Origin: Solidesulfovibrio carbinolicus
Lineage (GTDB): Bacteria; Desulfobacterota; Desulfovibrionia; Desulfovibrionales; Desulfovibrionaceae
Assembly: GCF_004135975.1 (NCBI RefSeq)
Contig: NZ_CP026538.1
Location: 3,286,001 to 3,350,000 of the forward strand
Length of the DNA: 64,000 nt
Direction of reading: 5' to 3'
Below the pieces are notes generated by a model. That model was not told the DNA's origin and made no database searches. It saw only the letters and a list, made by a program, of their open reading frames with translations. Of this stretch, positions 4,943 through 64,000 are shown piece by piece (position 1 is the stretch's first letter; every line of letters starts with the position of its first letter). Both the position numbers and the translations under genes were made by a program.

Positions 4943-4982
4943 GCCTCCGGCGGCCGGGGGCCTGAGGCCCCCGGACCCCCCA
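4943..4982 (+). repeat. 3'-end hairpin repeat, copy 1 (forward)
   Basis: GCCTCCGGCGGCC is followed by a GGGGGCC / GGCCCCC stem with a TGA loop and then GGACCCCCC. It begins 14 bases after the HDOD stop codon. One of seven copies in this window with the same box; all but one sit just after a stop codon and read away from the gene. Confidence 0.85.
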
Positions 4983-19550: not shown

Positions 19551-20795
19551 ATGATGAAAAAGCTGTTGATCCTTGGCTCGGGCGCCGGCGGCGTCATGGT
19601 GGCCACCCAGCTCCGCAAGAAGCTCGATCCCCGGGAATGGAAGATCACCATCATCGACCGCACCTGGCAGCACCACTATCAGCCGGGCTGGCTTTTCGTG
19701 CCGTTTGGCATCTACGACATCAAGGACTGCATCAAGCCGCAGACCGACTTCATTCCCTCGGGCGTCGATTTCGTCCAGGACGAGATCACCAACGTCGATC
19801 CGGTCAAGAAGGTCGTCACCTGCAAGGGCGGCTCCCACTCCTATGACTGGATCGTGGTCGCCACCGGCTGCCGCATCATGCCCGACGAGATCGACGGCAT
19901 GCTCGACGGCTGGGGACAGGACGTCCACAACTTCTACACCCCGGACGGCTCCATCGCCCTGGCGAAAAAGCTCAAGCACTTTAAGAAAGGCAAGCTCGTG
20001 CTCAACATCGCCGAGATGCCCATCAAGTGCCCGGTGGCTCCTCTGGAGTTCGTGTTCCTGGCCGACTGGTTCTTCATGACCCAGGACAGCCGCTGCAACA
20101 TCGAGATCGAGCTGGTGACCCCGCTGACCGGCGCCTTCACCAAGCCCGTGGCCGCCGAGATCCTGGGCCGGATGTGCGAAGAGAAAAACATCAAGATCGT
20201 GCCCAACTTCGAGATCGCCCAGGTCAACGCCGACAAGAAAACCATCGAGTCCCACAAGGGCGAGGAACTCGATTACGACCTGCTCATCTCCATCCCGCCC
20301 AACTTCGGCTCCCAGGTCATCATCGACAGCGACATCGGCGATCCCATGGGCTACATGGACACCGACCACCACACGCTGAAGTCCAAGAAATACGAGAACA
20401 TGTACATCATCGGCGACGCCACCAACGTCCCGACCTCCAAGGCCGGCTCGGTGGCCCACTTCGAGTCCGAGATCGTGGTGGGGAACATCCTGCGCGAGAT
20501 CGACGGTCTGGAGCCCCTGCCGGAATTCGACGGCCATTCCAACTGCTTCATCGTCTCGGGCTACGAAAAGGCCGTGCTCATCGACTTCAACTACAAGATC
20601 GAGCCGCTGCCGGGCAAATTCCCGTTCCCGGGCATCGGGCCGCTGTCGCTTTTGGAAGAATCCTTCCTCAACTACTGCGGCAAGATGATGTTCAAGTGGG
20701 TGTATTTCAACCTGATGCTCAAGGGCAAGGAACTGCCGCTGGAGCCCCAGATGTTCATGGCCGGCAAAAAGCGCATGGGCGCTTGCGCGCTGTAG
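19551..20795 (+). CDS. Sulfide:quinone reductase-like FAD oxidoreductase (414 aa)
   Basis: N-terminal FAD-binding motif LILGSGAGGVMVATQL, a second ATG motif region (YDWIVVATGCRIMP), and the SQR-type Cys160 in IKCPVAPLEF, which in the family takes part in sulfide or persulfide chemistry. The late IIGDATNVPTSKAGSVAHFES motif closes the flavin site, and an amphipathic C-terminal region (LPGKFPFPGIGPLSLL) resembles the membrane-contact segment of SQRs. Expected role: transfer of electrons between sulfide/persulfide and a quinone or another acceptor at the membrane face. In sulfate reducers the physiological direction is not settled. It heads an operon with a DUF1641 protein and a receiver. GCGAGGC precedes the ATG; 19554 is an alternative start. 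Confidence 0.8.
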   Translation: MMKKLLILGSGAGGVMVATQLRKKLDPREWKITIIDRTWQHHYQPGWLFVPFGIYDIKDCIKPQTDFIPSGVDFVQDEITNVDPVKKVVTCKGGSHSYDWIVVATGCRIMPDEIDGMLDGWGQDVHNFYTPDGSIALAKKLKHFKKGKLVLNIAEMPIKCPVAPLEFVFLADWFFMTQDSRCNIEIELVTPLTGAFTKPVAAEILGRMCEEKNIKIVPNFEIAQVNADKKTIESHKGEELDYDLLISIPPNFGSQVIIDSDIGDPMGYMDTDHHTLKSKKYENMYIIGDATNVPTSKAGSVAHFESEIVVGNILREIDGLEPLPEFDGHSNCFIVSGYEKAVLIDFNYKIEPLPGKFPFPGIGPLSLLEESFLNYCGKMMFKWVYFNLMLKGKELPLEPQMFMAGKKRMGACAL

Positions 20796-20808
20796 GGAGG
20801 TGCGTCCA

Positions 20809-21471
20809 ATGACCACCGAGGAACGCATTCTTGAACGCCTTGAGTCCATCGAGGCGGAGCTGAAAGAACAACGGGTCGCCCGTCTGGAACGGGGCGAGAT
20901 GTTCCACGACATGAACCCGCTCATGAAGTCGGGATTTAAAATCCTGCTCAAGGAACTGGGGTCCGTGGAAGCCGGTTTCCAGCTCGAAGACCTCTTCGTG
21001 CTGATCAAGCGCTTCCTGCGCAACATCGGCAACCTGGCCTACGCCCTGGAGCAGCTCGAAAACATCATTGAACTGTGGCACACCATGGAGCCTCTGGCCA
21101 AGTCCATGGTCCACACCGGCATCCGCAGCCTGGGCGAACTGGAACAGCGCGGCGTGTTCCGCACCTACGCCGCCATGATGGATGTGCGCGCCAAGGTCGC
21201 CGCCCATTACGGCCCCGACGACATCGCCGCCATGGGCGACAGCTTCGTGGCGCTCATTGGCCTGCTCAAGAAGATGTCCGATCCCAAGATGCTTGAACTG
21301 CTCGACAAGCTCACCGACCTGCCGGCCGGCCTGGATCTCACCAAGGCCGAACCCGTCGGCCCCCTGGGCATGGTCAAGGCGCTTGGCGATCCCGATCTCA
21401 AGCGCGGCATCGGCGTCGCCCTGGAACTGGCCAAGGGCCTGGGCAAATTAAGCGAAGCCGCCCCCCGTTAA
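20809..21471 (+). CDS. DUF1641 protein (220 aa)
   Basis: A soluble, helix-rich protein; the N-terminal coiled coil (ERILERLESIEAELKEQ) and central segment LAYALEQLENIIELWHTMEPL match DUF1641, a family found beside SQR-like flavoproteins and some formate dehydrogenases. Its function is unknown; a chaperone or regulatory partner of the flavoprotein is plausible from context. GGGAGG stands at 20794-20799, ten bases before the ATG at 20809; the GTG at 20800 directly abuts that site and is unlikely to be used. The gene is 13 bases from the SQR-like stop. Confidence 0.75.
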   Translation: MTTEERILERLESIEAELKEQRVARLERGEMFHDMNPLMKSGFKILLKELGSVEAGFQLEDLFVLIKRFLRNIGNLAYALEQLENIIELWHTMEPLAKSMVHTGIRSLGELEQRGVFRTYAAMMDVRAKVAAHYGPDDIAAMGDSFVALIGLLKKMSDPKMLELLDKLTDLPAGLDLTKAEPVGPLGMVKALGDPDLKRGIGVALELAKGLGKLSEAAPR

Positions 21472-21496: not shown

Positions 21497-21853
21497 ATGG
21501 CCAAGAAGATACTCATCATCGACGACGATCCCGAAGTCGTCAGCTACTTAAAAGACCTCTTCGACGGCGAAGGCTTCACCACCTTCACCGCCACCGACGG
21601 CGTGGCCGGCCTGGAGCAGGCCCAGGTCCACAACCCGGACCTCATCACCCTGGACATGGACATGCCCGCCCGTGGCGGCACCCTGTTCTACGTGAAGCTG
21701 CGCAAGGAACCCGGCCTGGCCGAGATTCCGGTCGTCGTGATAAGCGGCGTCGGCCCCCGTCCACCGGCCCTTGGCAGCAACGTGCCGGTCATCAGCAAGC
21801 CTGTGGACCGGGTCAAAACCTTGCGCCTTGTCAAGGAGATGCTTGGGGAATAA
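21497..21853 (+). CDS. Single-domain response regulator of the SQR-like operon (118 aa)
   Basis: Receiver with DDDPEVVSYLKDLF, phospho-acceptor Asp53 in LITLDMDMPARGG and a Lys in VISKPVDR. The pattern PDLITLD-x-(D/E)-MP is shared with the lone receiver at 56193-56549 in the hmc locus (PDLITLDIEMP), and both are 118 residues, so the two are likely paralogues. No output domain. It lies 25 bases after the DUF1641 gene and is followed by a receiver-PAS-PAS-kinase gene, the same pairing as at the hmc locus. Confidence 0.88.
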   Translation: MAKKILIIDDDPEVVSYLKDLFDGEGFTTFTATDGVAGLEQAQVHNPDLITLDMDMPARGGTLFYVKLRKEPGLAEIPVVVISGVGPRPPALGSNVPVISKPVDRVKTLRLVKEMLGE

Positions 21854-22081: not shown

Positions 22082-24010
22082 ATGAACGAGAAGGTGCTGC
22101 TGGTTGACGACGACGAGGCCATCCGCGAAGTCCTCAGCCTCTCCATCGCCGACCTGGGCTACGACGTGGAAACCGCCCCCGGCGGCCGCGAAGCCCTGGA
22201 CCTGTGCGCCACCTTCAAGCCCTCCATCGTGCTCACCGACATCAAGATGCCCGGCATGGACGGCATCGAACTGCTTTCGCGCGTCAAGGCGCTTGATCCC
22301 GAGATCGAGGTCATCATGATTTCCGGCCACGGCGACATGGAACTGGCCATCGAAAGCCTCAAGCGCCAGGCCCTGGATTTCCTCACCAAGCCCGTGCGCG
22401 ACGAACTGCTCACCGCCGCCCTGCACCGGGCCGCCGACCGCGTGTCCATGCGCCGCCAGATCGCCGAACACACCCGCAATCTCGAACGGCTGGTGCGCGA
22501 AAAATCCGCCCGCCTGGTCGAGATGGAGCGCCGCATGGCCGTGGGCCAGGCCGTGGAGGGCGTGGCCAGCGCCATCGAGGGGCTGATTGCCTCCTTCGAC
22601 CAGGGGCCGAGCTATTTCAACCAGATGCCCTGCTGCATCGTCATCCACAACCGCTACCTCGAAATCGTGGCCGTAAACACCCTGGGCCGGCAGCGCCTGG
22701 GCGAGGTGGTGGGCAAGATGAGCTGGGAACTCTACGCCGACCGCCAGGGCAGCGGCAACGCCTGCCCGGTCTGGCGCACCGTGGAGCAAGGCCAGGGCCA
22801 GCGCGGCCGCGAGACCTTCCGCGACAAGGACGGCCGCGAGATTCCGGTGCTGGTCCATACCGCCCCGGTCTTTGGCACGGACGGTCAGGTGGAGCTGGTC
22901 ATCGAGATCGCCGCCGACGTGGCCGAGGTGGGCCGGCTCCAGGAAGAACTGCGGGCCGTGCGCGAAAAGTTCCAGCGCCTGTTCGACGCCGTGCCCTGCG
23001 CCATCGCCGTGCTGGACCAGGACTTCACCGTGGTCGAGGCAAACCGCCAATGGCGCGCCGACTTCGGCGAGGCCGAAACCGGCCCCTGCCACAAACTCTT
23101 TGCCCACCGCGACGACCCCTGCGAACACTGCCCGGCCGAAAGCTCTTTCCACGACGGCGCGTCCCACGAAGGCGAAACCGTCGTTTCCACCCGCTGCGGC
23201 GCGGCCAAAAACATGCTCTTGCGCACCGCTCCCATCCCCGACGCCGCCGGCGAAACCAGCCAGGTCATCGAAATCGCCGCCGACATCACCCCCATCCGGG
23301 CCCTGCAAGACCACCTCGCGTCGCTTGGGCTCATGCTCGGCTCCATGTCCCACGGCGTCAAAGGCCTGCTCACCTCCCTCGACGGCGGCATGTTCAAGGT
23401 CGAAACCGGACTGTCCCGCGAGGACTGGACCCGCGTGCGCGACGGCTGGGGCGTGGTGTCCGACAAGATCGGACGCATCCGCAACATGGTCCTCGACATC
23501 CTGTGGTACGCCAAATCGCGCGAACCCGAACTCGCCCCCGTCTCCATCGAAACCTTCGCCCGCGATCTGGCCGGCATCGTCGAAGCCAAGGCCAAAAGCC
23601 GCGGCGTGGCCTTCATCCTGCGCCTGGGCGAGGCCGAGGGCACCCTGCCCATGGACGAAACGGCCCTGACCTCGGCCATGGTCAACCTGCTCGAAAACGC
23701 CGTGGACGCCTGCGCCGAAGACAAGGTCAAGGCCTTCCACGAAGTGACCCTGACCGTGGAAGCAACAGCCGAAGCCGTGACCTTCGTGGTCGCCGACAAC
23801 GGTGTGGGCATGGACCAGTCCACCCGGGAACGCATGTTTACGCTGTTTTTCTCCTCCAAAGGCTCGCGCGGCACCGGACTGGGGCTTTTCATCGCCAACC
23901 AGATCGTGGCCCAACACAGCGGAGCCATCGCCGTGACCTCCGAACCCGGCGTCGGCAGCGCCATCGCCGTGCGCCTGCCGCGCGGCGATGGCGCTGGGGT
24001 GTGCGCTTAG
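22082..24010 (+). CDS. Receiver-PAS-PAS histidine kinase (642 aa), cytoplasmic
   Basis: Order: receiver (residues 1-120; phospho-acceptor Asp53 in VLTDIKMPGMDG, VIMISGHGDMELAI, FLTKPV), coiled coil, PAS-like domains at ~175-290 and ~300-405, then an unusual phospho-acceptor segment with His424 in GSMSHGVKGLLTSLDGG, and HATPase with NLLENAVDAC, VADNGVGMDQ and SRGTGLGLFIANQIV. No membrane segment. The second PAS has CHKLF and CEHCPAES, conserved cysteines that could bind metal or sense redox. It is a clear paralogue of the gene at 54060-55988: same length (642 aa), order and SHGVKG box. Probably phosphorylates the lone receiver just upstream. Confidence 0.9.
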   Translation: MNEKVLLVDDDEAIREVLSLSIADLGYDVETAPGGREALDLCATFKPSIVLTDIKMPGMDGIELLSRVKALDPEIEVIMISGHGDMELAIESLKRQALDFLTKPVRDELLTAALHRAADRVSMRRQIAEHTRNLERLVREKSARLVEMERRMAVGQAVEGVASAIEGLIASFDQGPSYFNQMPCCIVIHNRYLEIVAVNTLGRQRLGEVVGKMSWELYADRQGSGNACPVWRTVEQGQGQRGRETFRDKDGREIPVLVHTAPVFGTDGQVELVIEIAADVAEVGRLQEELRAVREKFQRLFDAVPCAIAVLDQDFTVVEANRQWRADFGEAETGPCHKLFAHRDDPCEHCPAESSFHDGASHEGETVVSTRCGAAKNMLLRTAPIPDAAGETSQVIEIAADITPIRALQDHLASLGLMLGSMSHGVKGLLTSLDGGMFKVETGLSREDWTRVRDGWGVVSDKIGRIRNMVLDILWYAKSREPELAPVSIETFARDLAGIVEAKAKSRGVAFILRLGEAEGTLPMDETALTSAMVNLLENAVDACAEDKVKAFHEVTLTVEATAEAVTFVVADNGVGMDQSTRERMFTLFFSSKGSRGTGLGLFIANQIVAQHSGAIAVTSEPGVGSAIAVRLPRGDGAGVCA

Positions 24011-24374: not shown

Positions 24375-26648
24375 ATGTCCCCTTTGCTCACTTTCATACG
24401 CAGCCATCTGAGCATCAAGATCGGCATCCCGTTGGCCGTGGTGCTGTTTGGCTGCATCTTTGTCTGGGCCGGTTTCCAGGTCGCCCGCGAGGAGCGCTTT
24501 GTCCAGAACGCCGGGGTCAAGGAAGCCGACCGGGTCCTGGCCACGGCGCGTCTTGGCCTGGATTACGCCATGCTGCTCAATTCCCGCGAGGACATCCGGG
24601 CCATTGTCGCCAACCTCGGCCGGCTGCCCGAGATTCGGGAAATCCGCATCATCAACAAGGCCGGCCAGGTCATGTTCACGAGCAAGGGCGAGGCTCCGGG
24701 CACGCGCCTGGACACCTCGGCCGCGCCCTGCCAAGTCTGCCACCAGCGCACGCCGCCGGCCGTGTCACCCAGCCTGGAGCATCGGCTGTATGCCCGGGAG
24801 ACCGTGGGCGGCGAGCAGATCTTGCGCATCGTCGGCCCCATCGCCAACGAACCGGGCTGCGCCGAGCTGGCCGGCTGCCATTTCCACAAGGACAGCGAAC
24901 AGATTCTCGGCGTCCTCGACATCGCCTTTTCCCTGCGCGAGAGCCAGTCGCTGATCGAGGAATTCAAAGAGAACACCGTCTATCTGGCCGCCCTGGTTTT
25001 CGGCGCGGCCATCCTGACCTTGTTTCTGGTCATTTTCGTGCTCATCAAGCGCCCGCTGTCGCGCATCGAGGGCGAGGCCCGGACCTGGGCCAAGGGCAAG
25101 AAACCGGTCAGCATCGACGAGGACCGCCTTGACGAGATCGGCCAGCTCTCCCGGGCCATCCATCAGATGGGCAGCGACCTCATCGCCAAGAACAGCCAGA
25201 TCGAGCTGCAAAAGGATCTGTATCAGGACCTTTTCGAGGGCGTGCCGTGTCTGGTGACCGTCCAGGACCGCAATATGCGTCTGCTGCGCTTCAACCGGTC
25301 CTTTGCCGAGAAGTTCAACGCCTCGGTGGGCGAATACTGCTTCAAGGCCTACAAGAACCTGGACGCGCCGTGCCCGTCCTGTCCGGTCAAAAAGACCTTC
25401 GAGACGGGCCGTTCCCACACCACCGAGGAGACCGGCTGCTACAAGGACGGCACGCGGGCCGACTGGATCGTTACCACCTCGCCGGTCTACGACTCCGAGG
25501 GCAACCTCGTGGCGGCCATGGAGATGTGTCTGGACATCACCTCGCGAAAGGATCTGGAGCTGGCGCTTAGGCGGTCGGAGAAGAAGTATTTCGACGTGTT
25601 CAACAACGTGCCCGGCGCGGTGTTCGTCATCGACCGCGACGACCTGTCGGTGCTGGACTGCAACCGGGGGGCGGTGGCCATGTACGGGCTGCCGCGCGGC
25701 GAGCTGACCAAGCGCTCGCTGCACGACCTGTTTTACGACGAACGCCGCGACGCGGCCATGGCCGCGGTCATCGACGGTCAGGACGTGGAGCAGGCCCGCC
25801 ATGTCACGGGCGACGGCCGGCCGTTTTTCGTGTCCATGCACACTTCGTTTTCCGAATACGCCGGCCGGCGGGTGCTGCTCGTCACCGTAGCCGACATCAC
25901 CAAACGCCTGGAGGCCGAACAGCAGCTCATCCAGGCCGGCAAGATGGCGACCTTGGGCGAAATGGCCACGGGCGTGGCCCATGAGATCAACCAGCCCCTG
26001 TGCGTCATCCAGACCAGCGTCGATCTGGTGCGCCGCCACCTTGGCCGGGGCGAGGCTCCGCCGTTGCCGCTGCTCACACGCTTAACCGACCTTATCGGCA
26101 ATCAGGTGGACCGGGCGGCCCGGATCATCGGGCATATGCGGGAATTCGGGCGCATATCCGACCATGAGGCGGAGTTGGTGGACGTGGGGGCCATTGCCCG
26201 GCGCTCGGTGGAATTTTTCGCCGAGCAGCTGGCCCTTCGCGGCATCGAGACGGAGTTCGCCCTGGCCGAGAACCTGCCGCCGGTGCGCATCGATCCCAAC
26301 CGGCTGGAGCAGGTGATGATCAATCTGCTGGTCAACGCCCGGGACGCCATCGAGGAGCGGGCCAAGCGGGAGCCGGCCTGTCCCCGGCGCATCGTCATCA
26401 AGGCCACGGCCAACCACGACGCGGTCAAGGTGCGCCTGTCGGACACGGGCGCGGGTTTCCCCAAGGAACTGGCGGCCAAGATCTTCGAGCCGTTTTTCAC
26501 CACCAAGGAGATCGGCAAGGGCACGGGCCTGGGGCTTTCCATCAGTTACGGCATCATAAAAGACGCCGGCGGCGACATCGTGGCCGCCAAAAACGCCGAG
26601 GGCGGCGCGACCTTCTACATCCGGCTGCCGGTGGCGAGGGAGGGGTAG
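24375..26648 (+). CDS. Sensor histidine kinase with a periplasmic c-type haem motif (757 aa)
   Basis: Transmembrane helices at ~18-36 (IPLAVVLFGCIFVWAGF) and ~197-220 (YLAALVFGAAILTLFLVIFVL) bracket a ~160-residue periplasmic domain holding a canonical CXXCH (CQVCH, Cys119-Cys122-His123) and, later, a C-x5-CH pair (CAELAGCH), so one or two covalent haems are possible. After a HAMP-like linker come two PAS domains (~275-395, with CPSCPVKKTFE, and ~400-510), HisKA with His536 (GVAHEINQPLCVI), and HATPase (LLVNARDAIEE, SDTGAGFP, FEPFFTTKE, GTGLGLSIS). A haem in the sensor would let it read redox potential, oxygen, NO or CO in the periplasm; the ligand is inference. No receiver gene is adjacent on this strand. 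Confidence 0.88.
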   Translation: MSPLLTFIRSHLSIKIGIPLAVVLFGCIFVWAGFQVAREERFVQNAGVKEADRVLATARLGLDYAMLLNSREDIRAIVANLGRLPEIREIRIINKAGQVMFTSKGEAPGTRLDTSAAPCQVCHQRTPPAVSPSLEHRLYARETVGGEQILRIVGPIANEPGCAELAGCHFHKDSEQILGVLDIAFSLRESQSLIEEFKENTVYLAALVFGAAILTLFLVIFVLIKRPLSRIEGEARTWAKGKKPVSIDEDRLDEIGQLSRAIHQMGSDLIAKNSQIELQKDLYQDLFEGVPCLVTVQDRNMRLLRFNRSFAEKFNASVGEYCFKAYKNLDAPCPSCPVKKTFETGRSHTTEETGCYKDGTRADWIVTTSPVYDSEGNLVAAMEMCLDITSRKDLELALRRSEKKYFDVFNNVPGAVFVIDRDDLSVLDCNRGAVAMYGLPRGELTKRSLHDLFYDERRDAAMAAVIDGQDVEQARHVTGDGRPFFVSMHTSFSEYAGRRVLLVTVADITKRLEAEQQLIQAGKMATLGEMATGVAHEINQPLCVIQTSVDLVRRHLGRGEAPPLPLLTRLTDLIGNQVDRAARIIGHMREFGRISDHEAELVDVGAIARRSVEFFAEQLALRGIETEFALAENLPPVRIDPNRLEQVMINLLVNARDAIEERAKREPACPRRIVIKATANHDAVKVRLSDTGAGFPKELAAKIFEPFFTTKEIGKGTGLGLSISYGIIKDAGGDIVAAKNAEGGATFYIRLPVAREG

Positions 26649-57580: not shown

Positions 57581-58990
57581 CTATTCCTCGTCGCCGTCGT
57601 CCTCGTCCTTGGGCTTGAGGTGTTCGGGCACGATGACCATTTTGAGCAGCAGCGGCTTGAGGAAGCTCCAATCGATGTGGATATGGTACTCTTCCTCAAG
57701 GTCGCGAATGGCGTCCCAGCAGTTGTGGCAGGGCGCGATGACCAGCTTGGCCCCGGTGGCCAGGATCTGGTCGCGCTTGGTGAGAAGCGCCTTGTTGCGC
57801 ATTGGCCGGAACTTGCCGATGCCGTTGAAGCCGCCGCCGCCGCCGCAGCAGTAGTTATGCTCTTTGTTGGGCGTCATTTCAACGAGATAGCCCGGTTCGA
57901 CGAGATAGGACAGGATCTCGCGGGCGGTCTCGGCCAGACCCCAGTTGCGGATGTAGTTGCAGGAGTCCTGATAGGTGACAGTCTGCTTGATCCGCTTGGC
58001 CGGGTCGATCTTGAGCTTGCCTTCGCGAAGGGCCTCGGCCACCCACTGGACGTAGTGGATGTAGGGCGCGGGCGGCTGGCCGTCGGGACGACCGGCCCAG
58101 AAGGGGCCTTCGATGACCGTGGCCCGGTGGGCGTGGCCGCATTCGGTGCCGATGACCCGCTTGGGCTTTAAGCGCTCGATGGCCGCGTAGACGTTTTCCA
58201 CCTGCAGCTTGCAGGCTTCCCAGTCGCCGGCGAACATGGACAGGCTGGTCTGCTCCCACCCTTCGCTGGGCACGGTCCAATTTTCCCCGGCGATGTGGAA
58301 CAGGATGGCCGCCTCGGCCAAGTCCTCGGGGTAGTGCTTGGGCTCGCGGGCGTTGCAGGTGTACATGATGTCCGCGTCTTCCTTGTCGACGGGGATCTCA
58401 AGACCCGGCCAATCGTCCTGCTGCTCCTCGGCCATCCATTCGCACGTCTCCACCCAATCCTCGGTGGTGACGTCCATCTGGGCGCGGTAGACGCGGTGCA
58501 TGCCCGCGCCGATCTTGAGTTCCCAGGGCACGAACCCCTGGGAATAGAGCAGGCCGCGGGTGTAGCCCATCATGACGCCCATATCGATGCCGTGGGGGCA
58601 ATACATGGCGCAGCGGTTGCAACAGGTGCACTGGGACCAGGCCACTTCCATGGCATGGCGCATGAACGCGTTGTCCACGTCGCCCTTGCGGCGGATGATC
58701 TCGCCCAAGGTGGTCTGAATCTTGTACGACGGCACCTGCTCGGGCTTGCAGTCGTTGACCAGATACAGAAAGCAGGAGTCGGCGCACAAGCCGCACCGGG
58801 CGCAGATGTCGAGCCAGGTTTTCGTGCGCGATTTGCAGGTTTTCTGGATGGTTGCCCACAGTTTTTCGCGGTCAACCTCCAGCGACAGCATTTCCTCGTA
58901 GTATTTCGTGCCGCGCGTATCGGAGAGCAGAGCCTTGAGCTCCTCCTCCGTCGTGATCGGCCGCTTATTACAATAAATCCCTTCAGGCAT
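57581..58990 (-). CDS. hmcF: Hmc complex cytoplasmic iron-sulfur subunit HmcF (469 aa)
   Basis: Two [4Fe-4S] motifs ([12 protein letters not shown] and [14 protein letters not shown]) are followed by CCG-domain cysteines (SCNYIRNWG and [12 protein letters not shown]), the layout of HdrD/DsrK-type proteins that can bind a non-cubane cluster and handle disulfides. It is soluble and cytoplasmic and should receive electrons from the membrane subunits, passing them to sulfate-reduction partners. Length fits D. vulgaris HmcF. It begins 36 bases after hmcE. Confidence 0.93.
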
Positions 58991-59026
58991 GACGTGTCAC
59001 TCCTTGGCGATATCCCGCCGGCCGGT

Positions 59027-59704
59027 TTACCAGACGATGCCGCTGCCGCGCTGACCGCCGCGCTTGGTGCCGAAGTCGATCCCGATCTGGGCCCGGGAAC
59101 AGAAGAACAGCACGGCGTGGGACAGCTTGGTGAACGGCACGGCGATGAGCCAGATTTCGCCGGTGATGATGTGGGCGAGCAGCCACCCGTTGCCGTCGCC
59201 GCTCTGGTGGGCGGCCACGAAGCCGGTGACCAGGGGGGCGAGGCTGATGGCCATGATCCCCAGATCCTGGCGGGTGGTGATGATGCGCACTTCGCTTAAG
59301 CCGAAGCGGCGCAACAGGATGAACAGGCCGGCCAGAACGGCCAGGATGGTCAGGATGTCGGCCAGCCCGTCGGGCATGGTCGGCCAGGACACGCCGAAGC
59401 GCTCGGCCACGATCATGACGTGGGCGTAGAGGAAGATCGGCACGATGACCAGGCCGATGTGCAGCAGGAAGAAGGCCGTGGCAAAGACCGGCTTGGCCCG
59501 CCAGCTGCACGAGGCAAAGGGAATGAGCCAGTGGAAGATGGACTTCAGCGCCCCTTTGACGGCCAGATCGGGTTTGTGGCCGTAGGCCACGCGGTCAAGC
59601 TGCCAGTTGAGGCCCTTGACGTACATATAGGCGCGCCAGGCGCAGCCGAGGATGCATATGGCGAACGACAGCCACAGCATCGGACCCGTCAGGAATGCAT
59701 ACAT
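59027..59704 (-). CDS. hmcE: Hmc complex membrane subunit HmcE, NarI-like (225 aa)
   Basis: Five to six hydrophobic helices (MLWLSFAICILGCAW; ATAFFLLHIGLVIVPIFL; ILTILAVLAGLFILL; LGIMAISLAPLVTGF; WLIAVPFTKLSHAVLFF) with histidines placed as in the NarI/DsrM b-type cytochrome family, so haem b and quinone interaction are likely. It connects periplasmic HmcA/B to cytoplasmic HmcF. Position and size match the D. vulgaris hmc operon. Confidence 0.9.
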   Translation of the reverse strand: MYAFLTGPMLWLSFAICILGCAWRAYMYVKGLNWQLDRVAYGHKPDLAVKGALKSIFHWLIPFASCSWRAKPVFATAFFLLHIGLVIVPIFLYAHVMIVAERFGVSWPTMPDGLADILTILAVLAGLFILLRRFGLSEVRIITTRQDLGIMAISLAPLVTGFVAAHQSGDGNGWLLAHIITGEIWLIAVPFTKLSHAVLFFCSRAQIGIDFGTKRGGQRGSGIVW

Positions 59705-59738
59705 TGGTGTTCTCCTTGGCGATCGCGGTCCGATCAGC

Positions 59739-59873
59739 CTAGTAGCGGCGTTTACGCTCTTCCTTGTCCGTGAGGAAGTGCCAGAATCCGACGAAGCAGA
59801 TCAGCACGACGCCCATGAGGACGTAGGTGATGCTCTTGTTGTGGAGCATCAGGTCTTGCAACGTATTGAACAT
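59739..59873 (-). CDS. hmcD: Hmc complex small membrane subunit HmcD (44 aa)
   Basis: A very short protein, MFNTLQDLMLHNKSITY followed by one transmembrane helix (LMGVVLICFVGFWHFL) and a basic tail (DKEERKRRY). It sits exactly where D. vulgaris encodes HmcD, between hmcE and hmcC, 15 bases after hmcC. Its role in the complex is not known; it probably stabilises the membrane part. Confidence 0.85.
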   Translation of the reverse strand: MFNTLQDLMLHNKSITYVLMGVVLICFVGFWHFLTDKEERKRRY

Positions 59874-59888
59874 GGCTGTTCCCCTGTC

Positions 59889-61061
59889 CTAGTGGGACGA
59901 GTCTTTGTAGGCCGGATGCACGTAGAAGATGGGCATCCGGGTGACGATGAACCGGAAGGCGATGACGCCGATGGTGACCACGAACAAGGAGATGATGATC
60001 TCGCCCGCGCTCGGGAAGTAGCGGTCAACGCTGGGCAGCTGCCAGTTAAAGGCCACCAGGCTCACGTTGAACCGATTGAGCACGATGCCGAGCACCGTCC
60101 ACAGGGCGGTGAACCGGGCGAGCTTCAAGTTGCGGTCGCGGTAGGCCACGGCGTAGGCATAGCACGGCAGGGCCACGAAGCCGACGACCTCGACCAGCCA
60201 CCAGGCGCCGTAACCGGTGCCCAGGAACTGCCAGCGGTTGTCCATGGCCAGGCCCAGGAGCTTCATGGCCAGGTAGCCGGCCATGATCCAGGCGGCCGCC
60301 TTGGAGAAGGCCATCTGCAGGTCTTCGTAGCCAAGGTTGTATTCGTCGTCCATCTTGTGATGGAAGTGCTTGTGCGACAGCGTTCCCTCGAAGATGACCA
60401 TGGACATGCCGGCGAACATGCTGGACATGAAGAACATGACCGGCAGGTACGGCGTGTACCACAAGGGGTGCAGCTTGGACGGGGCGATGAGATACAGCGC
60501 GCCCAGCGAGCTCTGGTGCAGGGTCGAGAGGATGACGCCCAGGATGGTCAGGCCCATGGTCAGCTTGACCAGGATGTCGCGGTACTTGTCAAATCCCCGC
60601 TTCCACTCCAGGGCGGCCGGCAGGTATTCGAGGAACAGCACCGTTAAGTAGATGAACACGCACAGACCGACTTCAAACAGGATGGACGTGGTCCCCTGCT
60701 GGTAGAAGATCGGGTACGGCAGACGCCAGGGGCGGCCGACGTCGTAGTTGAGGGCAAACACGACCAGGGCGTAGCCCAAAAAGGCCGTCAGGATGGCCGG
60801 GCGCACCGCGCCGTGAAAGCGCTTGAACCCGAAGATGTAGCAGGCGGCCGAGGTGGTATAGCCGCCGGCGGCCAGGGCGACGCCGCACAGCAGGTCAAAC
60901 CCGATCCAGATGCCCCAGGGGTTGTTGTCGGAGAGGTTGGTCACCGCGCCCAGGCCCATGGTGAAGCGCATGATGGTGACCACCACGCCGGCGGCCAGGA
61001 TGATGCCGGCGACGATGTTCCAGGGAGTGAAAAGCGTCCCTTTCTGAGTTTCCGTCGACAT
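59889..61061 (-). CDS. hmcC: Hmc complex membrane subunit HmcC, NrfD-like (390 aa)
   Basis: About ten transmembrane helices of the NrfD/PsrC family (LFTPWNIVAGIILAAGVVV; NPWGIWIGFDLLCGVALA; GVILSTLHQSSLGALYL), the last being the typical quinone-site region. No cofactor motif. It interacts with the iron-sulfur subunit HmcB and may couple electron transfer to quinone or proton movement. Its start overlaps the hmcB stop by one base (TAATG), implying coupled translation. Confidence 0.93.
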   Translation of the reverse strand: MSTETQKGTLFTPWNIVAGIILAAGVVVTIMRFTMGLGAVTNLSDNNPWGIWIGFDLLCGVALAAGGYTTSAACYIFGFKRFHGAVRPAILTAFLGYALVVFALNYDVGRPWRLPYPIFYQQGTTSILFEVGLCVFIYLTVLFLEYLPAALEWKRGFDKYRDILVKLTMGLTILGVILSTLHQSSLGALYLIAPSKLHPLWYTPYLPVMFFMSSMFAGMSMVIFEGTLSHKHFHHKMDDEYNLGYEDLQMAFSKAAAWIMAGYLAMKLLGLAMDNRWQFLGTGYGAWWLVEVVGFVALPCYAYAVAYRDRNLKLARFTALWTVLGIVLNRFNVSLVAFNWQLPSVDRYFPSAGEIIISLFVVTIGVIAFRFIVTRMPIFYVHPAYKDSSH

Positions 61062-62113
61062 TACGCGTCCTCCCCTTCTTCGCCGGCCTTGGCGGCGGCT
61101 TCCAGGGCCTTTTTGACCTCGACCTCGATGCGCCGCTTGTTAGCCACCTCGGCCTTGGCCAGTTCCTCGGAGAGCTTGGCTTCGGCGTCGGCGCTGGCCT
61201 TGGCGATGGCGGCCGAGACGGCGGCCTGCTTCTCGGACTCGGCGATCTTCTCCTTGCGCTTGCTGATGGCGTAAAGCCCGGTCAAGAGCACCGGCCAGAT
61301 GCCGGCCACGGCCGGCACGGCGGCCAGGGCCCCGGAGGTCAGCTCCGGCGCGGAGGTGGTGCCGAGGTTTTCGTCCATGCCCAGGGCGGCAAAGGACGGC
61401 TTGGGCGCGATGGTCAGCCAGCTCGTGCCGCCCATCTCGCGCTCGCCGTAGACATGCTCGACGTAGCGTCCGGGATTGCCGCCGATGCGGTCCCAGGCCA
61501 GGTTGAGCAGTTCCCGGCGCTTGCCGAAGACAAGGGCTTCCTTGGGGCAGGCCTCGACGCAGCCGGGCAGCTTGCCTTCGAGCAGGCGCGGCTGGCACAT
61601 GGTGCATTTCATGACCCGGGGAGTGAAGGCCTTGTCGTACTCGTAGGCCGGGATGTTGAACGGGCAGGCCACCATGCAGTAGCGGCAGCCGACGCAGACG
61701 TCGGGGTCGTAGACCACCGCGCCGGTTTCGGACTTCTTAAACGCCGCCACGAAGCAGGCCGAGGCGCAGGCCGGCTCCATGCAGTGGTTGCACTGGATCT
61801 TGCGGAAGACCGGCGGCTTGCCGGCATCCGGGACGTACTTGTTGACGATGGTGTAGGTTTTGGCGTCGGTGCGGCGCGTGGCGTCGAGCACCGTCAGATC
61901 GTCAAAGGCCTTGGCGGGCTTGGGCAGGTCGTTGACCTGGTTGCAGGCCGCTTCGCATTTGCGGCAGCCGATGCAGCGCGAGGCGTCGAAGAGCACGCCG
62001 CCCGCGTTGGGCAGTCCCTTGACGTCGCCAAGCGACGCGGCCTTGGCCGTCGCGCCGGAGCCCAGGGTGACGCCGGCCGCGCCCAGAAGGCCCAGAAAGT
62101 GTCTACGTTTCAT
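61061..62113 (-). CDS. hmcB: Hmc complex periplasmic iron-sulfur subunit HmcB (350 aa)
   Basis: Twin-arginine type signal ([17 protein letters not shown]), then four [4Fe-4S] motifs of the DmsB/NrfC type: [38 protein letters not shown] and [21 protein letters not shown] transmembrane helix ([20 protein letters not shown]) near residue 275 is followed by an Ala/Glu/Lys-rich coiled coil to the end. It passes electrons from HmcA to HmcC. The helix plus coiled-coil tail anchors it on the membrane, as in the D. vulgaris protein. Confidence 0.94.
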
Positions 62114-62141
62114 TGTAGCGAGACCTCTGCTGGTTTGGGTC

Positions 62142-63899
62142 CTATTGCTTCTTTTCCTTGTGGCAACCGGCGCAGTCCGTGGCGGCAGGCACGGGCTTGG
62201 CGCCCGGAGCCTTGCTGACGACCTTGCCCTCGATGCCCATTGCCTTGTGACAGCCCATGCACTGGTTGTGGTAGGCGGCCTTGAGCGCCGGACGGGCGGA
62301 GGCGGTAGTCGTTTCGACGGCCTGGTGGCAGTTGCCGCAACGCGGCGGCGTCTTCGAGGCCGGGCTGTTGTGGTGGCAGCCCTGGCACACGGCGGCGTCG
62401 GTGGCGTGGAAGGCCCCGGCCAGCTTGCTGTCCTTCATGCCGTCGAGCATGGCCTGGACGATCTGGCGGTGGGGCAGGACCGACGGCTCGTAGTCCTTGG
62501 ACAGGGACCCGATGGTCACGGTCTGGGGGATGTCCTCGACCGGGAAGGTCGTGGTCACGTCGCGCTTGCCGGCCAGCAGCTTCTTGGCCAGGTCGGCTTC
62601 GGCGGCGGCGGTGTCGGCGCTGGCCGGCTTGGCCATCATGGAGGTCATGGCCTCCTGCAGGGCGGCGTCGCCGGGCACGTGGCAGGAACCGCACTTGTCC
62701 ACCCCGCCGATGCCCTTGGGCATGGGGTCGTGGCAGCCGGCGCACTCGGGCTTTTTCTGGGCCACGGCGTGGCAACCGGCGCAGCTCTGGGTCGCGCCGA
62801 CGTTGTGCATCGCGCCTTCCAGGGTCACGAATCCGCCTTCCTTCACGCCGGCCGGGGTGTGGCACTTGGCCGAACAGGAGGACAGGGCGGCGTGGTGGCA
62901 GGACACGCAGGTCTCGCTCTTGGCTTCGTGGTACTTGTGGTCAAAGGGCACGGCGGGCATGCCGGCATAGGGCTTGCCCGGAGTGGCCATGGAGGTCTGG
63001 ACGGCGGCCGGACGCACCATGACGTAGTCGGGCTGGCCGCGCTTGATGCGCAGGTCCGCGCCCTGGGGAACTTTCTTTAAGGACGTCTCGGCGATGGCCT
63101 TCTGATCCAGGGGGCCATGGCAGCCGGCGCAGGTGACCGGGCCGGTGGGCACGTCCTTGCCGGCGGCGGCCGCGGCCTTGTGGCAGGTCACGCATTCGCC
63201 GTGGGCGGCCAGGCGCAGGGAGCGGATCTCCTTGGGCTGGCGGTTTTCCACCACGGTGGTCGTCTCGCCGTGGCAGTACGAGCAGGAACCGGGGACCTCT
63301 TCCGGCTTGGGCGCGGGAACGGTCTTGCCGGTCTTCTCGCTGAAGATGTGGTGACAGGCGCCGCACTTGTTGTCGGCTTTTTCCTGGGTGGCGGCGTGGC
63401 GGTAATGCAGCCGCTTGTCCACGACCAGGGGCTGCCAGTTGGAGGCCACGTCAGGCGTGGCGTTGTGGCAGCCTTTGCACTGGACGTCGGTGGGGCCGGT
63501 CTTCTGGCCGGCGGCCGCCATGTCCTTGTGACAGCTGATGCAGTTGTTGTGGTAGTTGTCGCGCAGCTTCTCGCCGGATACAGGCTTGCCCTGGCTCATG
63601 TATCCGAGCTGCATCACGCCGTCCTTGTCGGACAGGTGACAGGTGCCGCACTCTTTCTTGTAAAAGTCTTTCTGCTTGCCCAAAGCCGTGGTGTGCTTGT
63701 CGTGCAAAAACGCCACGGTGGGTTGCGACAATTTGCCGTAGGCCTTCATTGCATCGATGGTGACGATGTCGGCCCGCTGCTTGTCGCTGACCGGCTGGGC
63801 GGCGGTGGCCCGGCCCATCGGCAAAGCGGACAAGCCGCCAATGCCGCAAATGGCCAGGACGGCCAGCAGCTGTCTCATGCGCCGTTTTCCGTTTTTCAT
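62142..63899 (-). CDS. hmcA: High-molecular-weight 16-haem cytochrome c HmcA (585 aa)
   Basis: A Sec signal peptide ([19 protein letters not shown]) is followed by 15 CXXCH motifs and one CXXXCH (CSAKCH), giving 16 covalent haems, the number known for D. vulgaris HmcA. Many scattered extra histidines can serve as sixth ligands. Periplasmic; receives electrons from hydrogenases through type I cytochrome c3 and donates to HmcB. ATG 63899 follows GAAGAAGG; longer in-frame starts upstream lack a signal peptide at the right distance. First gene of the hmc operon; its promoter lies in the last ~100 bases of the window or beyond. Confidence 0.96.
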
Positions 63900-64000
63900 A
63901 CCTTCTTCGACCCTCTGCTTACGTGTTGCTTTCGCCCTTCCCCAGGTTGGCAATAGACGTACTGCTCCTGCCCTCGCACCTCCCTTGGCCCGCGGTCAAA

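Follow-up and report, generated by a model that had tools for sequence, protein, structure and literature searches.

The closest described relatives of the sensor kinase reported here carry c-type heme in periplasmic sensor domains. GSU0582 and GSU0935 of G. sulfurreducens (PDB structures 3b47 and 3b42; Pfam family PF21563) each hold one heme at a CXXCH motif in a Cache (PAS-like) periplasmic domain and have a chemotaxis output. The axial heme ligands of GSU0935 are Met60 and His144 (PMC8396549). GSU0582 and GSU0935 are described as Met-bound when reduced and Met-free when oxidised, at -156 and -251 mV, and as binding CO and NO. In the sCache_heme/Tll0287-like family (PF11845; PMC12889525), a c-type heme motif occupies an insert that connects strands of a Cache fold, and the domain occurs in signalling fusions. 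DcrA-type chemoreceptors possess a single heme (CHHCH motif) and a chemotaxis output. Heme sensors with two motifs are on record in Geobacter and Anaeromyxobacter (PMC8396549; PMC3831638): two-component proteins of Geobacter have one or two CX2-4CH motifs (PMC8396549), and the signal-transduction proteins GSU0599, GSU0591, Adeh_2011 and Adeh_3383 have two of this form (PMC3831638, PMC8396549, after Londer 2006).

A 64,000-nucleotide stretch of the Solidesulfovibrio carbinolicus genome (contig NZ_CP026538.1, positions 3,286,001 to 3,350,000; hereafter the window) encodes a 757-residue histidine kinase that, judged from its sequence, represents a two-heme form of the sCache_heme/GSU0935 type of sensor, with a C-x5-CH motif (site 2) as the predicted original heme site and a CQVCH motif (site 1) as the predicted addition. 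The kinase shares its Cache domain, heme-site loop and place of the distal Met with GSU0582 and GSU0935, but its sensor domain falls below the PF21563 cut-off (19 bits versus 27). It resembles the sCache_heme/Tll0287-like proteins in its fold, in a heme motif within a strand-connecting insert and in its fusion to signalling domains, but a Pfam search found no match to PF11845, and the kinase differs from that family in having CX5CH at site 2 and a second heme site. DcrA-type chemoreceptors, of which there are two copies in the same genome, have their motif at the site-2 position and a distal Met, but lack the CQVCH site. Like GSU0599 and its counterparts the kinase has two motifs, but its x5 spacer lies beyond the stated x2-4, and x4 homologues are found in the same tree as the kinase; the comparison is by description only, and neither CX5CH nor a block of genes with sulfide:quinone oxidoreductase (SQR) is described for those proteins. 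As far as the open literature shows, three things are new: the CX5CH form, the reasoning from homology that site 2 came first, and the association of the family as a whole with SQR, Hmc, Tmc and Hdr genes (Hdr with an embedded receiver). We know of no purified member of the two-site clade.

Architecture and conservation of the kinase

The domain order of the kinase is TM1, Cache sensor, TM2, HAMP, PAS, PAS, HisKA and HATPase (Table 1), and the AHEINQP phosphoacceptor box of HisKA, together with HATPase_c, identifies it as a two-component sensor kinase. The original prediction placed CQVCH between the two transmembrane helices of a histidine kinase and noted the second C-x5-CH; the open reading frame, hydropathy and Pfam matches agree, and the flanking membrane helices place both cysteine motifs in the periplasm. 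Maturation genes of the Ccm type (CcmE and CcmF/CcmC-type proteins) are present in the genome.

Table 1. Positions in the window of the diheme kinase, its predicted parts and the upstream genes of its block
Feature	Position	Strand	Basis
SQR, type III, first gene of conserved block	19551..20795	+	NF049943, 679 bits vs cut-off 525; synteny
DUF1641 protein (ATG at 20809 preferred over listed GTG at 20800)	20809..21471	+	PF07849; synteny
Stand-alone receiver (REC), likely phosphoacceptor	21497..21853	+	PF00072; synteny
REC-PAS-PAS-HATPase kinase, constant neighbour of the family	22082..24010	+	Pfam; synteny
Predicted diheme c-type sensor histidine kinase, 757 aa	24375..26648	+	ORF; Pfam PAS_4, PAS_9, HisKA and HATPase_c above cut-off
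TM1, about residues 12-34	24408..24476	+	Hydropathy
Periplasmic sensor domain, Cache fold, residues 36-205 as modelled	24480..24989	+	AlphaFold2, Foldseek
M66, predicted distal ligand of heme 2, counterpart of GSU0935 Met60	24570..24572	+	Alignment column, 3b42
Predicted heme site 1, CQVCH (C119-H123), added site	24729..24743	+	Homologue alignments; absent in single-heme relatives
Predicted heme site 2, C162-A-E-L-A-G-C168-H169-F-H171	24858..24887	+	Homologue of GSU0935/DcrA CXXCH
TM2, about residues 201-229	24975..25061	+	Hydropathy
HAMP	25044..25175	+	PF00672, 23.9 bits vs cut-off 25 (just below)
Two PAS domains	25233..25904	+	PF08448, PF13426
HisKA and HATPase_c	25953..26636	+	PF00512, PF02518

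Homologues were collected by a scan of GTDB genomes with a domain pattern outside the motifs and by genome searches, giving 140 ORFs; the scan pattern was taken from another part of the domain, so there was no selection for cysteines in that set. Alignment of homologues for both motifs was the check set beforehand, and loss of CXXCH among close homologues, the outcome that would have spoken against a heme sensor, was looked for and found in none. Site 1 is kept as C-x2-CH in 140 of 140 ORFs, and site 2 is likewise present in all, with a spacer of 3, 4 or 5 residues (motifs were checked by eye in nine rows and by regular expression in the others). The C, C and H of both motifs are invariant in an alignment of 25 sequences; M66, C119, C122, H123, C162, C168, H169 and H171 are invariant in an alignment of 61. 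Shuffling of the 168-residue periplasmic stretch produced CxxCH at a frequency of 0.17% and a pair of C-x2-5-CH motifs at 0.015%. A chance origin of both motifs was rejected on these frequencies and, more tellingly, on the conservation in 140 ORFs.

Sensor kinases with c-type heme had been described as rare at the outset, which does not hold in this phylum. Matches to the family at E values up to 1e-8 are found in 133 of 395 genomes of the phylum (a few of the 133 being single-heme relatives), so kinases of this kind are not rare there, and the two-motif Geobacter proteins and the sCache_heme family had already been recorded.

Relationship of the two heme sites

A plain phmmer search of the PDB with the sensor domain gave chance matches only. 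A profile of 25 sequences finds GSU0935 (3b42), the CQSCH motif of which aligns with site 2, not with CQVCH. A profile of the single-heme relatives finds GSU0935 at E 2e-11 and GSU0582 (3b47) at E 2e-9, with the CQSCH of both at site 2. Compared profile to profile, the two-site and one-site sets match with 99.4% probability (E 2e-21), and CQVCH has no cysteines opposite it. The two DcrA-like heme chemoreceptors of the same genome have their single CHHCH in a context (NEPACHHCHG...ILG) that is the context of site 2. Weaker relatives form a series from one x2 motif at site 2, through two x2 motifs, to two motifs with a site 2 of x3 to x5 and CHxH. CQVCH was considered as the ancestral site and rejected, the only motif of the single-heme relatives being at site 2. 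The proposal of a periplasmic sensor with covalent heme is well supported by the conservation of CXXCH in all 140 ORFs, but the original emphasis on CQVCH is not, since site 2 is the homologue of the proven heme site.

The predicted distal ligand points the same way. M66 aligns with Met 26 of the 3b42 chain, which is 84 residues from His 110, the same distance as between Met60 and His144 of GSU0935 (144-60 = 110-26). As in GSU0935, this Met comes from a long N-terminal helix, and it is invariant in 61 of 61 family members and also in the single-heme relatives. Sixty of the 61 members match the Pfam family Mcp40H-20_sensor (PF21563) at E values up to 0.1 (best 7e-8), mostly below the cut-off. 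Assignment to the Cys-ligated Tll0287 type was rejected because PF11845 is not matched and the distal position holds Met instead of Cys.

The AlphaFold2 model of the sensor domain, built with the 61-sequence alignment, has a pLDDT of 85.5 and a pTM of 0.80, and a Foldseek search of the PDB gave the sensor domains of WalK, GSU0935 (3b42) and CitA among the top matches, as befits a Cache fold. The model is a monomer, whereas the relatives are swapped dimers; its high rmsd to 3b42 is consistent with the domain-swapped dimer of that structure. The model has site 1 on a short helix that lies between strands 2 and 3; site 2 falls in the loop connecting the final two strands, where confidence is lowest. 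In sCache_heme proteins, too, the heme motif occupies the loop that precedes the last strands, but the canonical CXXCH expected at that position is replaced by CX5CH here and by CX3-5CH in the clade.

In a tree of 147 domains, the x5 sequences form one group (support 86/74) that is sister to an x4 protein encoded in the same SQR block (L035), and x3 and x4 alternate several times. A few rows of this tree carry wrong motif labels from the regular expression (L159 and L170 hold two motifs), with no effect on the x5 group. Across the family, the site-2 spacer ranges from C-x2-CH to C-x5-CH with fixed C, C, H and Met, as would be expected of a heme site that tolerates changes of spacer; the pattern suggests, but does not prove, attachment at CX5CH. 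The open papers that were searched do not contain CX5CH as an attachment motif; the progression from CX2CH to CX5CH at one homologous site provides a natural series on the spacer tolerance of cytochrome c maturation. Alternatively, heme might be attached at CQVCH only, with C162, C168, H169 and H171 forming a disulfide or supplying ligands, which would accord with the non-canonical, variable spacer of site 2 (x3 to x5), the co-occurrence of CHxH with the lengthened spacer, and the low model confidence of this loop. Such an arrangement is distinctly unlikely, because the C, C, H and distal Met are invariant, because cytochrome c3 of Desulfovibrio ordinarily contains CX4CH sites, and because four relatives (L163, L177, L178 and L179) keep the lengthened site 2 without CQVCH, which indicates that site 2 has a function of its own.

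Gene neighbourhoods and the predicted signal

The diheme kinase is the last gene of a block in the order SQR, DUF1641, REC, REC-PAS-PAS kinase, diheme kinase, which is kept across genera in the loci of the clade that have enough flanking sequence; SQR is 75-100% identical and the kinase about 53-98% identical among these loci. No DNA-binding regulator is encoded in the block from SQR to the kinase. DUF1641 proteins are partners of a menaquinone-linked formate dehydrogenase in Bacillus (PMC8808070), so the DUF1641 protein may link SQR to the quinone pool. Throughout the family, SQR/DUF1641, Hdr, Hmc or Tmc genes lie within 6.5 kb of the kinase in 62 of 64 loci, compared to 2 of 20 control sensor kinases (Fisher p 4e-14, which is only indicative because the family loci are related and the controls are few and represent a single kinase type). 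In Desulfobacterales, the gene for the diheme kinase comes after hdrA-hdrC-hdrB and before that of a REC kinase, and in 33 of the 34 testable loci the open frame of HdrA also encodes a receiver domain (Pfam). No description of HdrA with an embedded receiver was found in the open papers searched. Other family members adjoin Hmc or Tmc genes.

The original prediction offered periplasmic redox state or O2/NO as the signal. The same ligands at site 2 as in GSU0935 and GSU0582, the second heme, and the electron-transfer neighbours make redox the most probable signal of the three; O2 is an unlikely one, as the characterised relatives form no stable oxy complex. On balance, the evidence favours a periplasmic redox sensor that controls electron-transfer complexes. 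Two covalent c-type hemes, one at C162-x5-C168-H169 with M66 as an exchangeable distal ligand and one at CQVCH, would pass electrons to and from the cytochrome/quinol system of the periplasm. A change in the redox state of heme 2 would alter Met ligation and shift the helix that leads to TM1, switching the kinase via TM2, HAMP and PAS. The kinase probably informs the electron-transfer machinery about redox conditions outside the membrane, and it probably signals by phosphotransfer to the REC proteins encoded next to it. We infer that phosphate is passed both to the stand-alone receiver and to the receiver domain of the REC-PAS-PAS kinase, and that these would then tune the use of the linked electron-transfer enzymes, with SQR/DUF1641 as the target at this locus, although gene linkage by itself is no proof that SQR is controlled.

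The main rival to redox sensing is NO sensing, in which the hemes would bind NO (or CO), NO would displace the axial Met and switch the kinase, and any redox change would be incidental. Binding of CO and NO by GSU0582 and GSU0935 is consistent with this possibility, as is a signalling sCache_heme protein that holds NO tightly and releases it slowly but forms no stable O2 complex (PMC12889525). However, the neighbouring genes encode electron-transfer complexes and not NO detoxification, and electron exchange accounts for an added second heme better than ligand binding does, making a gas sensor unlikely. The tight, clade-specific linkage to SQR/DUF1641 could also suggest that sulfide or polysulfide is sensed, with sulfide binding or reducing a ferric heme and thereby inducing or gating SQR. 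This is highly improbable: the rest of the family adjoins Hdr, Hmc or Tmc genes rather than sulfide enzymes, and a sulfate reducer produces sulfide constantly.

Under redox sensing, a further possibility, put forward tentatively, is that the receivers of the phosphorelay are associated with, or built into, the very enzymes of electron transfer (REC beside SQR/DUF1641, REC inside HdrA) and are fed by the diheme CX5CH kinase, so that periplasmic redox state might gate cytoplasmic electron flow directly and not through transcription. How sulfate reducers choose among Hmc, Tmc, Hdr and SQR is poorly understood, and one sensor family beside all four, with two predicted redox cofactors, is a direct candidate to provide the redox input still missing from this picture.

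Additional features of the loci

In the Desulfobacterales loci, the receiver of HdrA is near the N-terminus, and HdrA is encoded directly upstream of the diheme kinase (for example L056:581-4111, and many of the loci L041-L110). The SQR of the window scores well above the cut-off of the NCBIfam model for the selenoprotein subtype of type III SQR, although its ORF contains no in-frame TGA. A complete hmc operon is located at 57584-63995 of the window on the minus strand, with HmcF, E, C and B and a 16-heme HmcA above NCBIfam cut-offs; a second diheme kinase of the same genome (L150) is found just beyond the window, divergent from this operon. In a more distant genome of the phylum (L230:4859-13700), a diheme kinase gene adjoins that of a sigma-54 response regulator; the cluster also encodes a cytochrome b, cytochromes with 7 and 12 hemes, and a diheme sensor of ~300 residues, too short for a kinase. 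A two-heme kinase of Geobacter is presumably linked to the cbcBA regulator. A palindromic element, GGGGCCTGAGGCCCCCGG, occurs with at most one mismatch at positions 4957, 24065, 39618 and 53656 of the window (8 matches versus 0.9 expected, counting both strands), one copy being located in the gap that separates the REC-PAS-PAS kinase gene from that of the diheme kinase.
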